Source: Bacillaceae bacterium (GTDB lineage: Bacteria > Bacillota > Bacilli > JACDOE01). Taken from it: 64,000 nucleotides of DNA. Below the pieces are notes generated by a model. The model was not told the DNA's origin and did not search any database. It worked only from the letters and a program-made list of their open reading frames with translations. Shown here piece after piece: positions 26,783-37,463 of this stretch. Location: assembly GCA_017656255.1 (NCBI GenBank), contig JACDOE010000001.1:1119205-1183204 (forward strand). The letters run 5' to 3'. Position 1 is the stretch's first letter. Each line of letters opens with the position of its first letter. The position numbers and the translations under genes are program-made.

Positions 26783-27727
26783 TTACACTTTTTTCGCAAT
26801 AAAGGCTACCCAGTCTTCCATATTAAATGTTTCCAGTATCTCGAGACCGGCATTTCGCGCGGAGTCTTTGACTTCCGCTTCCTTGTTTTTGATGATGCCG
26901 GACGCAATAAAATATCCCGAGGGAGTGAGGACACGCCCCACATCATCGACAAAGCGAAGGATCACTTCTGCGAGAATGTTGGCGACCACGATATCCGCTT
27001 CCATGTCCACTCCGTCCAGCAGATTGTTCTGCCTTGATTCGGCAATGGCATCAATCCGGTTCAATTTAAAATTAATCCGGCTGGCGCTCACCGCCACATC
27101 ATCCAGGTCCAGGGCCAGAATACGAGAAGCGCCCAGTTTGGCCGCCGCGACACTTAATACGCCGCTTCCGGTGCCCACATCGATCACCCGGTCTCCCGGT
27201 TTCACCGTTTTTTCCAGCGCCCGGATGGCTAACACGGTGGTGGGGTGGGTTCCGGTACCGAAAGCCATACCCGGATCCAGTTCAATCACCATTTCGCCTT
27301 CCCGATCCGGCGGGGTTTCGTAATTTTCCCAGGTCGGCGTGATCGTGAACCGGTCTGAAATGTGAACCGGTTTATAATATTTTTTCCAGGCCGTCGCCCA
27401 TTCTTCCTCGCGGACTTCAGTCAGAGTGACCTGTCCTGTTCCCCTGTCAATGCCATACAAAAACAGGTTGTTGACAGCATCCTTGATTTCTTCCACCGTT
27501 TCCTGCAAACAGCTGTTAATGGGAAGGTAGGCTTTGACGATGACCCCTTCTTCCGGAAAATCGCCGGGTGAGAGTTCATACACTTCCCCGAATTTGCCTT
27601 CCCAGTCTCGGTAAAGAACTTCCGGGTCTTCAATCACCACCCCGCTGGCCCCCGCTTCATGGAGAATGTTGGCAACCGCCTCAATCGCCTCCTGGCTGGT
27701 ATGAATACTGATTTCCGACCATCTCAA
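26783..27727 (-). CDS. prmA: Ribosomal protein L11 methyltransferase
   Basis: PrmA trimethylates ribosomal protein L11. The catalytic domain shows GMAFGTGTHPTT, motif I VIDVGTGSGVLSVAAAKLG, and DIVVANILAEV. I choose a TTG start at 27727: GAGGGGGTGG lies 5 bases upstream, and the product then begins with (M)RWSEISIHTSQEA, matching the MKWSEISIHT start of B. subtilis PrmA. An ATG at 27754 is in frame but has no ribosome binding site. That gives 314 residues, the usual length. It sits between dnaJ and rsmE. Confidence 0.92.
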   Translation of the reverse strand: MRWSEISIHTSQEAIEAVANILHEAGASGVVIEDPEVLYRDWEGKFGEVYELSPGDFPEEGVIVKAYLPINSCLQETVEEIKDAVNNLFLYGIDRGTGQVTLTEVREEEWATAWKKYYKPVHISDRFTITPTWENYETPPDREGEMVIELDPGMAFGTGTHPTTVLAIRALEKTVKPGDRVIDVGTGSGVLSVAAAKLGASRILALDLDDVAVSASRINFKLNRIDAIAESRQNNLLDGVDMEADIVVANILAEVILRFVDDVGRVLTPSGYFIASGIIKNKEAEVKDSARNAGLEILETFNMEDWVAFIAKKV

Positions 27728-27787
27728 TTGTTCCACCCCCTCACCATCCGGCATCTCCGGCTGATCCCCGAGCGCTTCAACGGCGCA

Positions 27788-28915
27788 TTAATCGCCGCGA
27801 AAAGCCCGTTTCATTTTATCAAAAAAGGATTCCTGATCGCCATGAATGGATTCGCCACTCTCTTCGGCAAATTCCTTCAGCAATTCTTTCTGTTTGTCGG
27901 TCATATTGACCGGTGTGACCACCCGCACCTGTACATGTTGATCTCCCCGGCCATATCCTCTCAAACGCGTGATTCCTTTTCCCTTAATTCGAAAATAGGT
28001 TCCGGTTTGTGTCCCCGGCGGGATTTTCAATTTGACTTTGCCGTCCAGAGTCGGGACCTCCACTTCATCTCCGAGGGCGGCCTGCACGAAGGTTAATGGA
28101 ACTTCGCAATAGACATCGTCTCCGTCCCGTTTGAAGAAATCGTGCGGTCTGACACGAATCAGCACGTACAGATCCCCGGGCGGTCCCCCGTTGCGGCCGG
28201 GTTCCCCTTTTCCGGCGACACGCAGGCGGGCGCCGTCGTCCACACCGGCCGGGATTTTCAGGTGAATTTTGCTCCTCACTTTCATATGGCCGCTGCCGTG
28301 ACACTTGCTACATTTTTCACGAATGATTTTACCTGTTCCCTGACAGTTTTGACAGATTCGGCGGTTCACGATACGTCCGAAAGGCGTATTCTGAATCTGC
28401 TCCTGCTGCCCGGTGCCGTGGCAGACCGAACACTCTTCAGGCTGTGTGCCAGGCTTTGCACCAGTTCCGTGGCACTGATCACAGGTTTCTTCACGGGGGA
28501 TTTCAATGTCCTTTTCAATGCCAAATGCCGCATCCTTGAATTCAATCTCAAGGGTGTACTGCAGATCTGCTCCCTGCTGCGGAGCATTCGGGTTTCGCCG
28601 TCTTCCCCCGCCGCCGAAGAACATATCGAAAATATCGCCAAATCCGCCAAAATCCCCGCCGAAGTCGCCAAAACCGCCTCCGCCAAAACCCTGGCCGGGG
28701 TCGGCGTGGCCGAACTGATCATAATTCGCTCGTTTCTGGGAATCACTCAACACGTCATAGGCTTCTTTGACTTCTTTAAACTTTTCTTCCGCATCCGGGG
28801 ACTTGTTGACATCCGGATGATATTTTCGCGCCAGTTTGCGATATGCTTTTTTTATTTCATCGGCACTTGCATCTTTCGATACGCCGAGAACTTCATAGTA
28901 ATCCCGCTTGCTCAT
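27788..28915 (-). CDS. dnaJ: Chaperone protein DnaJ
   Basis: DnaJ is the Hsp40 cochaperone that delivers substrates to DnaK and stimulates its ATPase. The J domain carries HPD ([14 protein letters not shown]), followed by a G/F-rich stretch (residues about 72-115). Four zinc-binding CxxCxGxG repeats follow: [24 protein letters not shown] and CSKCHGSG. Length is 375 residues. GGGAGT precedes the ATG. It lies 175 bases after dnaK; that gap holds a hairpin. Confidence 0.97.
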
Positions 28916-28997: not shown

Positions 28998-29029
28998 AGT
29001 CAAAGCTGGCGGTCACACCAACTTTGACT
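28998..29029 (-). terminator. Intercistronic hairpin between dnaK and dnaJ
   Basis: AGTCAAAGTTGG and CCAGCTTTGACT pair on the minus strand (12 bp with one G-U), followed by TTACATTTTTC. It may be a partial terminator or an mRNA processing site that lowers dnaJ output relative to dnaK. Confidence 0.55.
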
Positions 29030-29090: not shown

Positions 29091-30977
<1,887 letters not shown>

Positions 30978-31004: not shown

Positions 31005-31625
31005 CTATGAGCTGACCTTCACCATGGAAGGACGAATGACTCGATCTTTCATCATATATCCCTTTTGCAATTCTTCCACCACGACACCGGATTCATGTTC
31101 ATCACTGTCTACCTGCATCACGGCCTGGTGGTAATTGGGATCAAACTTTTTACCCGTTGCTTCGATCGGCTTGACATCTTCTTTCTCGAGAATCTGCATG
31201 AATTGCCGGAATACCATTTCTACCCCTTCCATGAGGGCATCGTTGTCCGATTTTTCCTTTCCGGCTTCGATGGCTCTCTCAAAATTGTCCACCACCGGCA
31301 ACAGCGATTCGATCACATTCATCGACGCATATTTGGCCATCTCTTCTTTTTCCTTCATGGTGCGGCGGCGGTAGTTGTCAAAATCAGCCTGGGCTCTGAG
31401 AAAACGATTATAGTTTTCTTCCACCTGTTTTTTTAATTCATCGATCTGTTGCAGCAATTCCTGTTCACGTTCCGAGAGGGACGATTCTTCCTCCCCTTTA
31501 TTATCCGGTGCTTCTTGCTGAGCTTTCATCGAATCATCTTGTTCCTGTGGCTGTTCTTTCTGCTCCAGGCCTTCTTCCATCTCATCCTGGTTTTCTACCG
31601 ATTGGTTCTTTTCTTCCAAAGCCAT
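31005..31625 (-). CDS. grpE: Nucleotide exchange factor GrpE
   Basis: GrpE releases ADP from DnaK. A charged, disordered N-terminus of about 60 residues is followed by a long helix (EQELLQQIDELKKQVEENYN) and the family motif RAQADFDNYRRRTMKEKEE. The beta domain has FDPNYHQAVMQVDSDEHESG and GYMMKDRVIRPSMVKV. Its length is 206 residues. The ATG at 31625 lies only about 2-3 bases after an AGGTGA, so the true start could be slightly different. It begins 15 bases after the chaperonin gene. Confidence 0.95.
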   Translation of the reverse strand: MALEEKNQSVENQDEMEEGLEQKEQPQEQDDSMKAQQEAPDNKGEEESSLSEREQELLQQIDELKKQVEENYNRFLRAQADFDNYRRRTMKEKEEMAKYASMNVIESLLPVVDNFERAIEAGKEKSDNDALMEGVEMVFRQFMQILEKEDVKPIEATGKKFDPNYHQAVMQVDSDEHESGVVVEELQKGYMMKDRVIRPSMVKVSS

Positions 31626-31640
31626 TCACCTCAAATTCTG

Positions 31641-33176
31641 TTATTCTTCTTCCTTCATGCGAATGATCGTATGAATGCGCAGTATCGCCCGGCTGACTTC
31701 CGCAGCCGCCTGGACCGCCTGGATCTTGACCTGTACCGGATCCACCACACCGACTTCCAGCATGTCAACCGGCGTTCCTGTGTCCAGATCCAGTCCGAAG
31801 GCATGATTGCCGGTTTCAATCTGAGTTGCTTTAACCTGTTCCACTTTTTCCAGCGGGCTGAATCCCGCATTCTGAATCATCTGGGTCAGGGGCCGCCGCA
31901 TGGCGTGACTGACCACTTCCATGCCGAAACTTTCCATGCCTCTTAACGCTGATTTTTGCTTTTCCAGTTCAATGGAAGCTGCCAGTTCAATGGCGCCGCC
32001 TCCCGGTATGTATCCGCTGCGTACGGCAGCCTGAACGGAAGAAGCGGCATCTCTAGCAATCCGTTCCCGTTCCCCGACCAGTTCCGGAGTGGGCGCGCCC
32101 ACAAGAATGGTCGCAGTCGGTGTTCCACTTCCATCCAGGATACGGACATGTTTCATCCGGTGATTCACGACGACTTTACCGGCATTACCCAGATACCGGG
32201 ACAGTTCTTCCACCGGTTTAGCGAGACCGGTCCGTTTCACACTGCGGGCTCCGGTATGTTCCATGACGCGTTTGATTTCTTTTTTGGCTACCCGGTGCAC
32301 AACCATAATCCCCCGGTCGCGACAAAACTCCTCAGCGAGCGCATCCAGGCTGCGATCCACAATCACCAGATTGACGCCCAGTTGTACCAGTTTGTCCAGG
32401 TCCTTTACAAAGGCATCTTTTAATTCCAGGTATCGCTGAAATCCGATTTCAGTGCCCAGTGCTTCATCATCCACTTCTTCCGGAGCAAAGGCATCATCCA
32501 TTACCAGAATCCTGGCCTGATCCAGTTCCGACGGCATATCATCCGCAACGGGCAGTTTGCTAATCAGCACACCGGAGATGACCTCATGCTCACTTCCCGG
32601 GGCAGCGACCACGCTGTCGGCAAAACGGTATGAAGTTTCAACCAGCTTTTCTGCTCCAACTGTGTGCGCGCCCTCCATAATCAGGCGGGCGATATCTTCC
32701 TGTTCTCTACCGGCAATTCTCGCAATCTGATAAAGTACCGGATCATCGAGTGTTTCAATCGGGGACGACTTTGCCCTCATCCATTCAATTGCCAGGCGGG
32801 CCGCCTCCTGGATCCCGGCGATAACCTTGGCCACCGGGACGCCCTGTTCGATCTTTCTCAGGCCTTCTTCGACCATGGCCGAGGCCAGCACCGTTGCCGT
32901 CGTCGTGCCATCCCCCACTTCATCCTGCTGTGATCGGGCGATGTTTATCAACATTCGGGCAGCGGGATGTTTCACCGCCATTTTATCCAGGATCGTCACA
33001 CCATCATTGGTGATCAGCACCTCTCCGGATTCATCCACCAGCATGGTGTCGAGCCCTTTTGGGCCCAGTGTTCCTTCCACGGCTGAAGCCACTGCCCGGA
33101 CGGCACTGGCATTACTCTGAATCACGGAAATCTGATCATCATGTCCATTTCTTTCTTCCCTGTCAGATGCGCTCAT
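31641..33176 (-). CDS. Archaeal-type chaperonin in the Hsp70 operon (group II fold; group III lineage)
   Basis: This is a Cpn60/TCP-1 superfamily ATP-dependent folding ring of the thermosome type, not GroEL. Residues 34-45 EGTLGPKGLDTM, 57-63 NDGVTIL and 88-93 GDGTTT form the nucleotide site. The distal motif has the catalytic-type Asp in RIARDAASSVQAAV and GGGAIELAAS near residue 390. At 511 residues it is shorter than archaeal thermosomes and ends in MKEEE without a GGM tail. No GroES-like gene is nearby, as expected for a built-in-lid chaperonin. Bacterial proteins of this kind were described from Carboxydothermus hydrogenoformans as group III chaperonins, also encoded in the hsp70 operon. 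Control by HrcA/CIRCE is inferred from position. Confidence 0.92.
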   Translation of the reverse strand: MSASDREERNGHDDQISVIQSNASAVRAVASAVEGTLGPKGLDTMLVDESGEVLITNDGVTILDKMAVKHPAARMLINIARSQQDEVGDGTTTATVLASAMVEEGLRKIEQGVPVAKVIAGIQEAARLAIEWMRAKSSPIETLDDPVLYQIARIAGREQEDIARLIMEGAHTVGAEKLVETSYRFADSVVAAPGSEHEVISGVLISKLPVADDMPSELDQARILVMDDAFAPEEVDDEALGTEIGFQRYLELKDAFVKDLDKLVQLGVNLVIVDRSLDALAEEFCRDRGIMVVHRVAKKEIKRVMEHTGARSVKRTGLAKPVEELSRYLGNAGKVVVNHRMKHVRILDGSGTPTATILVGAPTPELVGERERIARDAASSVQAAVRSGYIPGGGAIELAASIELEKQKSALRGMESFGMEVVSHAMRRPLTQMIQNAGFSPLEKVEQVKATQIETGNHAFGLDLDTGTPVDMLEVGVVDPVQVKIQAVQAAAEVSRAILRIHTIIRMKEEE

Positions 33177-33301: not shown

Positions 33302-34330
33302 CTAGTCTTCATAAAACTTGTTCAGGGTCTGGGACAGGTCACGGGTCAGATGGTTGAGAATGCGGATGACTTTGGCATATTCCATGCGTGTCGGCCCCAG
33401 GATCCCCACCACCCCGACGGGATTCCCGTGCAGTTCGTAAGTGGCCGTAATCACGCTGCAGTTGTTGACCGCTTCTTCATCCAGCTCCTGACCGATCCGA
33501 ACCTGAAGTCCGCTTTCTGTCTGACCGAGGAGACGTATCACAGCATCATCACGTTCCAGAAGTTCCAGAATGCCTCTTACTTTATCAATATCACGGAATT
33601 CCGGCTGGTTCATGATGTTGGTCGTCCCCTTCAGGTAAATACGATCGGCGGATTGTTCGTCAAATGCGCGGGAAATCATCTCCATCGCCTGATCATAGGT
33701 TTCAAGATGTTGCCGCAGCTCACGGTTGATTTCAGTAAAAATACGGGTCCGGATCTGCGAAAGCGGAACGCCTTTTAATTTATGATTGAACAGATTAACG
33801 AGTTTCTCAATATCAGAAAGTGAAATATCCTCCGGCACCTGGATCGTTTTATTCTCGACCCTTCCGGTATCAGTCACCAGAATAGCCACCGCCGAATGTT
33901 TGGAAATGGGAATAATTTGAATGTGATTTAACTTGGCCTGAAAGACTTCGGGTCCCATCACGATGGACGTATAGTTGGTCAACTGGGACAGGATATCGGC
34001 TGTCTGCTGAATCACCTGTTCCACTTCATAAAACTTCTGATCGAAAAAATATTTGATCCCCATGATTTCCGGGGCCGTCAGTTTTCTCAGCTTGAGCAGG
34101 TGATCCACATAGTAGCGGTATCCTTTCTGGGACGGCACCCGGCCTGCCGACGTATGCGGCTGCTCCAGGTATCCCATTTCCTCCAGGTCCGCCATTTCAT
34201 TGCGGACGGTCGCCGAACTGAATCCGATATCTTTGCGTTTAGAAATCGTTCGCGAGCCGACAGGCTCGGCGGAACGAATATAGTCATCTATGATGGCATT
34301 CAGAATCTTCTTCTGCCGTTCCGTCAACAT
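33302..34330 (-). CDS. hrcA: Heat-inducible transcription repressor HrcA
   Basis: HrcA binds CIRCE and represses chaperone genes. The N-terminal winged helix covers LTERQKKILNAIIDDYI, EPVGSRTISKR and the recognition region FSSATVRNEMADLEEMGYLE; the GAF-like HrcA domain follows. The start at 34330 (MLTERQKK) fits homologues and has AGGTGA 9 bases upstream; the frame is open to 34393 but reaches into the leader. It has 342 residues. It is the first gene of the heat-shock operon, about 105 nt after the predicted transcription start, so it autoregulates. A gap of 125 bases separates it from the chaperonin gene. Confidence 0.97.
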   Translation of the reverse strand: MLTERQKKILNAIIDDYIRSAEPVGSRTISKRKDIGFSSATVRNEMADLEEMGYLEQPHTSAGRVPSQKGYRYYVDHLLKLRKLTAPEIMGIKYFFDQKFYEVEQVIQQTADILSQLTNYTSIVMGPEVFQAKLNHIQIIPISKHSAVAILVTDTGRVENKTIQVPEDISLSDIEKLVNLFNHKLKGVPLSQIRTRIFTEINRELRQHLETYDQAMEMISRAFDEQSADRIYLKGTTNIMNQPEFRDIDKVRGILELLERDDAVIRLLGQTESGLQVRIGQELDEEAVNNCSVITATYELHGNPVGVVGILGPTRMEYAKVIRILNHLTRDLSQTLNKFYED

Positions 34331-34406
34331 GATGTCCATCACCTCACGATTAAGAGGACATGGCGGATCGACCCGACAATCGTCAATCTCCATGTTTTAA
34401 ACCTTA

Positions 34407-34433
34407 TTAGCACTCATGCCCCACGAGTGCTAA
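34407..34433 (-). promoter_or_regulatory. CIRCE operator (HrcA site)
   Basis: A perfect TTAGCACTC-N9-GAGTGCTAA inverted repeat, the full CIRCE consensus. It lies just downstream of the predicted -10 box, so it covers the transcription start and the 5' end of the mRNA. No second copy was found elsewhere in the window. Confidence 0.97.
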
Positions 34434-34444
34434 TCCTTATCTAA

Positions 34445-34474
34445 AACATACCAAATCCGGTCAGCTGTTGTCAA
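34445..34474 (-). promoter_or_regulatory. Sigma-A promoter of the hrcA operon
   Basis: TTGACA (34469-34474) and TATGTT (34445-34450) are 18 bases apart on the minus strand, immediately after the hemW stop codon. CIRCE begins 12 bases downstream. Confidence 0.8.
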
Positions 34475-37019: not shown

Positions 37020-37463
37020 ATGGCCTTGATTCCCTACGAACCTTTTCGGCATCTGGATAATATGAGGCGGGAACTGGACCGTTTTTTCACCACCGGTTTT
37101 CCCTTCAATCCGGGTACGGAAACTGAAATGGGAATGCCCCGTATTGATGTGCATGAAACGGAAAACGAAGTGGTCGCCACCTGCGATCTCCCCGGCCTCG
37201 AGAAAAAAGATGATGTGCATATCGATGTGGATGAAAACCGGCTGACCATCAGCGGCACCATCAACCGAGTCCAGGAAGAGGTAAAAGAAGACCGGGTTCA
37301 CCGCCGGGAAAGGTACACCGGACATTTCCAGCGCACCCTTTCACTGCCGGCGATGGTCAATGCTGATGAAGTCAAAGCCACTTACAAAAACGGAGTCCTT
37401 GAAGTCCGCATGCCGAAGGCAAAACCCGATACCAAACGAAGAATAGACGTAGAATTCCACTAA
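37020..37463 (+). CDS. Small heat-shock protein (Hsp20/alpha-crystallin)
   Basis: This is an ATP-independent holdase of 147 residues. After a variable N-terminus, the alpha-crystallin domain runs from PRIDVHETENEVVATCDLPG to the family motif YKNGVLEVRMPK, with a short C-terminal extension containing RRIDVEF. AAGGAGG precedes the ATG by 10 bases. It lies next to the chaperone operon but is transcribed the other way. No CIRCE or clear alternative-sigma promoter was found upstream. A strong terminator follows. Confidence 0.93.
   Translation: MALIPYEPFRHLDNMRRELDRFFTTGFPFNPGTETEMGMPRIDVHETENEVVATCDLPGLEKKDDVHIDVDENRLTISGTINRVQEEVKEDRVHRRERYTGHFQRTLSLPAMVNADEVKATYKNGVLEVRMPKAKPDTKRRIDVEFH

Follow-up and report, generated by a model that had tools for sequence, protein, structure and literature searches.

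The biochemistry of group III chaperonins comes from a single protein, Ch-CPN of Carboxydothermus hydrogenoformans, which passages of PMC5635000 describe as a double eight-membered ring that is driven by ATP and works independently of GroES. The same passages give the defining features of the group, which include a missing nucleotide-sensing loop and a particular arginine, and they locate all group III genes but one in the Hsp70 operon. Sections of a review (PMC5904260) state that type I and type III chaperonin genes of Firmicutes are both regulated by HrcA, the type III gene lying in the dnaK operon. In Bacillus subtilis, the activity of HrcA needs the GroE chaperonin (Mogk et al. 1997, cited in passages of PMC8957991). 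Here, we describe the gene cpn3, found in the window (the whole stretch of DNA analysed, 64,000 nucleotides). We consider it very probable that cpn3 encodes a conventional group III chaperonin, repressed by HrcA through CIRCE within an hrcA-cpn3-grpE-dnaK-dnaJ operon, which folds proteins alongside a retained GroEL.

The cpn3 gene and its operon

The features of the locus, numbered by their positions in the window, were as follows.

34445-34474, minus strand: sigma-70-like promoter, TTGACA-18-TATGTT, with TG before the second hexamer (a match to the consensus only)
34407-34433, no strand assigned: CIRCE operator, TTAGCACTC-N9-GAGTGCTAA, perfect (motif scan)
33302-34393, minus strand: hrcA, heat-shock repressor, 363 aa as listed (TIGR00331, E 1.4e-116)
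31641-33176, minus strand: cpn3, group III (thermosome-like) chaperonin, 511 aa (open reading frame list, Pfam, alignment and tree)
31005-31625, minus strand: grpE, 206 aa (open reading frame list and profile matches)
29091-30944, minus strand: dnaK, 617 aa (open reading frame list and NCBIfam)
27788-28915, minus strand: dnaJ, 375 aa (open reading frame list and NCBIfam)
26783-27754, minus strand: prmA, ribosomal protein L11 methyltransferase, 323 aa, at which the conserved gene block ends (open reading frame list, NCBIfam and synteny)

The open reading frame of cpn3 is intact and starts with ATG. Its product carries the motifs TNDGVTIL, GDGTTT and GGGAIE, keeps the ATP-site aspartates D58, D89 and D376 and ends in ...RMKEEE, without a GGM tail, so that the initial sequence-only reading of a 511-residue thermosome-like chaperonin between hrcA and grpE was confirmed. 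Pfam Cpn60_TCP1 matched the protein with an E value of 1.1e-108. NCBIfam thermosome models gave 290-294 bits against at most 191 bits for the GroEL models, all of these scores lying below the curated cut-offs.

All six genes from hrcA to prmA are on one strand, and the stop codon of cpn3 is separated from the grpE start by 15 bases. The CIRCE at the hrcA promoter, placed just downstream of the sigma-70-like match, has 0 mismatches (0 in 100 shuffles); together with the hrcA gene itself, this operator places the operon in the predicted HrcA/CIRCE regulon. The true start of hrcA may be an ATG at about 34330 (MLTERQ...), since the match to the family profile starts only at residue 24. The spacing between hrcA and cpn3 is 125 bases and contains a weak promoter-like match (33268-33239), and the cpn3 transcript may therefore be partly separate from that of hrcA. 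An RNA processing or attenuation signal in this gap was considered and dropped, because the gap folded no better than its shuffles (minimum free energy -30.7, z -0.33); a search for Rfam families near the gap found none. Between dnaK and dnaJ, a strong terminator-like hairpin of 14 pairs with a T-rich tail was seen (28998-29029, minus strand), which may lower the expression of dnaJ and prmA. A gene for a small heat-shock protein of the Hsp20 family lies 2.6 kb past hrcA (37020-37463, plus strand) and has no CIRCE.

Placement of Cpn3 among the chaperonin groups

The top natural match of Cpn3 in the PDB was 5x9u (Ch-CPN), with an E value of 2.9e-139 over residues 13-510, while archaeal thermosomes in the PDB reached about 1e-67 to 1e-64 and CCT about 1e-50. 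The entry 9rwq, labelled 'Ancestral Group II Chaperonin (ACII)', scored 578 bits to Cpn3 and the same-named 9rwp scored 279 bits; 9rwq is probably the ACIII of PMC12696368, mislabelled.

Residues were compared in an alignment of Cpn3, Ch-CPN, Mm-cpn, four haloarchaeal thermosomes and the GroEL of the same genome. Relative to Mm-cpn and the haloarchaeal thermosomes, Cpn3 lacks the nucleotide-sensing loop, with a gap of 2+4 residues as in Ch-CPN. R157 of Cpn3 is aligned to R155 of Ch-CPN, the arginine that contacts the gamma-phosphate, and an equivalent arginine was present in 80 of the 81 group III proteins compared. At the sequence level, the lid segment is clearly similar to that of Ch-CPN and aligns to it without a gap, and Cpn3 is accordingly predicted to have a built-in lid of group III type.

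A maximum likelihood tree was built with IQ-TREE under LG+C20 from 60 rows and 523 columns, group II being represented by 5 sequences only. Each of groups I, II and III was set apart from all other rows by a single branch, supported at 100/100, 100/99 and 99/97, respectively, by a bootstrap that was not fully settled. The tree leaves the root and the branching order of the three groups unsettled, and its long branches meet between groups I and II. Cpn3 fell inside the group III clade (99/97), apart from GroEL and the archaeal thermosomes. It was nested in starred group III sets of 5, 7 and 10 rows, which a quick tree showed to be members of its own class. By its sequence, Cpn3 belongs to group III and to the type represented by Ch-CPN of Carboxydothermus hydrogenoformans. 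A Cpn60 phylogeny had been named beforehand as the test of this assignment, and it put the protein in group III and outside GroEL; the broader claim, which places this group III chaperonin in an Hsp70 operon controlled by CIRCE, is likewise backed by the tree, the signature residues and synteny.

An explanation in which the operon of a Bacillales host recently acquired an archaeal thermosome gene would agree with the thermosome-like character of Cpn3 and with the general models, which score thermosome above GroEL. This explanation was rejected as very improbable, because Cpn3 nests within the Firmicutes group III clade beside members of its own class, because it shares only about 27-32% identity with the haloarchaeal thermosomes found against 44-58% with its class relatives, and because carriers across the phylum have the same operon context. 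An old transfer at the base of the clade may still have taken place and is debated in the literature (PMC12696368 and PMC5635000). Even less credible, to the point of being negligible, is a GroEL paralogue that converged on thermosome-like motifs. The shared Cpn60 fold is the one point that speaks for it; the tree separates Cpn3 from GroEL with full support, the GGM tail is absent, no groES partner lies in the operon, the lid region aligns with Ch-CPN, and a standard GroEL is encoded elsewhere in the same genome.

Carriers of cpn3, GroEL and the control of HrcA

Carriers were searched for with a profile made from eleven group III proteins, matches being accepted at an E value of 1e-120 or better. 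The gene was present in 59 of 399 sampled genomes of the class (~15%) and in 127 of 398 sampled genomes of the phylum (~32%); the first 61 genomes searched included 11 carriers. A scan of genome contigs gave one true relative, and the prevalence figures were therefore drawn from the genome search. No relative was found in the viral contigs searched. The nearest named relative found was that of Aneurinibacillus, at 58% identity. The closest relatives of the source among the genomes drawn share only its class, so the earlier assignment of the operon to Bacillales could not be established.

Gene order was compared in 82 loci: that of the window, those of 11 class members and those of 70 further carriers, which were chosen across families rather than at random. 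The order CIRCE (0 mismatches)-hrcA-cpn3-grpE-dnaK was found in 81 of them, including L187, apparently the locus of C. hydrogenoformans, given that its protein has zero tree distance to Ch-CPN. The direct linkage to hrcA, put forward as the notable point of this DNA, is thus shared with nearly every carrier locus compared, and since many relatives carry cpn3 at the same place, the locus is a further example of the arrangement already described. In the exceptional locus, L158 (4493-8351), hrcA, CIRCE, cpn3 and dnaJ occur without grpE and dnaK between them; the CIRCE sits in the hrcA-cpn3 region and not before hrcA, and about 21 kb separate this locus from groESL on its contig.

Some variants were observed among the group III proteins. 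Four of them (L136, L151, L161 and L170) have TNAG where the others have TNDG, the aspartate equivalent to D58, which probably corresponds to D52 of GroEL, being replaced by alanine; in such rings, ATP hydrolysis may be slow or absent. In L140 (genome G293), the equivalent of R155 is glycine (GGEQED versus GREQED); R155 of Ch-CPN is described as completely conserved in passages of PMC5635000. L178 (G727) and L192 (G413), both from one-contig genomes, have shortened cpn3 frames covering profile positions 6-457 and 1-346, which may be either assembly frameshifts or decaying genes.

The copies of groES-groEL and of CIRCE, which had been proposed for checking, were counted in the source genome. 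It has two Cpn60 genes and one groES, with a single groES-groEL operon. With up to three mismatches allowed, it contains exactly two CIRCE sites; the first is that of hrcA and the second, also perfect, lies 5' of groES. None of the 11 class carriers has fewer than two Cpn60 genes or lacks a further perfect CIRCE; in those whose coordinates were compared by eye (e.g. G007, G011, G017, G030, G037, G048 and G050), one such site adjoins groEL. At least two Cpn60 matches were also obtained in 69 of the 70 further carriers. In the remaining genome, G700, groES is cut at a contig end and groEL is therefore probably missing from the assembly only; G700, the only candidate for a carrier with a group III protein in GroEL's place, was not retained as such. 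The carriers checked keep GroEL, and group III has therefore not replaced it.

The sequence-only reading had suggested a feedback loop in which an archaeal-type ring rather than GroEL senses the folding load. In the form considered here, Cpn3 would replace or join GroEL in holding HrcA active, and the operon would encode its own folding-load sensor. The position of cpn3 directly after hrcA in all but one of the loci fits such a loop, as does the dependence of B. subtilis HrcA on a GroE chaperonin (passages of PMC8957991). Against it stand the retention of GroEL in the carriers, with the single exception lying at a contig edge, and the perfect CIRCE kept at groESL. Partial correlations between pairwise divergences, with shared history taken out, gave no excess co-divergence of Cpn3 with HrcA (partial r 0.07 in 58 genomes, a weak test), the value being not above the 0.08-0.18 obtained with GrpE, DnaJ, PrmA and HemW. 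Shared regulation explains the close linkage equally well. A Cpn3-based sensor is thus unlikely and the suggestion found no support; we are similarly doubtful that the group III ring modulates HrcA, alone or with GroEL, and that its place after hrcA reflects a dedicated feedback loop beyond shared transcription.

For the preferred reading, a conventional group III chaperonin under HrcA/CIRCE control, the following sequence of events is proposed. By analogy with Ch-CPN, Cpn3 would form a homo-oligomeric double ring and bind unfolded protein, and binding of ATP would close its built-in lid without GroES. Gene order, strand and CIRCE suggest that the hrcA promoter drives cpn3 together with grpE, dnaK and dnaJ. 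HrcA, predicted to bind CIRCE, would repress the operon, and heat or misfolding would lift this repression together with that of groES-groEL. As in B. subtilis, HrcA most likely still needs GroEL to be active, and the role of Cpn3 is probably added folding capacity beside DnaK, its presumed partner. Shared regulation is the simplest account, in which HrcA kept active by GroEL would repress both chaperonin systems.

Comparison with described systems

The locus adds one more carrier to a family of debated deep origin, either a relic of an ancestral chaperonin or the product of an early archaeal transfer. The near-invariant position between hrcA and grpE across the phylum makes a possible functional link with HrcA or with the Hsp70 system worth attention.

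The hrcA-grpE-dnaK-dnaJ operon of B. subtilis has the same repressor, the same Hsp70 gene order and HrcA control of groESL, but the passages of PMC8957991 that describe it name no chaperonin at the position, between hrcA and grpE, that cpn3 occupies in the window. The archaeal thermosome (group II) resembles Cpn3 in its built-in lid and overall sequence type; it differs in having the six-residue nucleotide-sensing loop, which Cpn3 lacks, and in forming a separate clade. Closer are the group III proteins of Aneurinibacillus terranovensis (L006) and of L044, L045 and L041, which share 55-58% identity with Cpn3 and have the operon and the CIRCE in the same position, while differing in the length of the hrcA-cpn3 gap and in residues of the apical domain. 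Ch-CPN (PDB 5x9u and 5x9v; passages of PMC5635000) is homologous to Cpn3 over the full length and has the same missing loop, gamma-phosphate arginine and lid segment, and L187, its apparent locus, has the identical order of HemW, CIRCE, hrcA, cpn3, grpE, dnaK, dnaJ and prmA. Comparison of sequence and synteny detected no functional difference between Cpn3 and Ch-CPN; the two differ by ordinary sequence divergence, and their hosts belong to different classes of the phylum. The locus in the window is itself nothing unusual within the group III family, and its layout is the usual one for a family that was described in 2010 and whose structure was solved in 2017.
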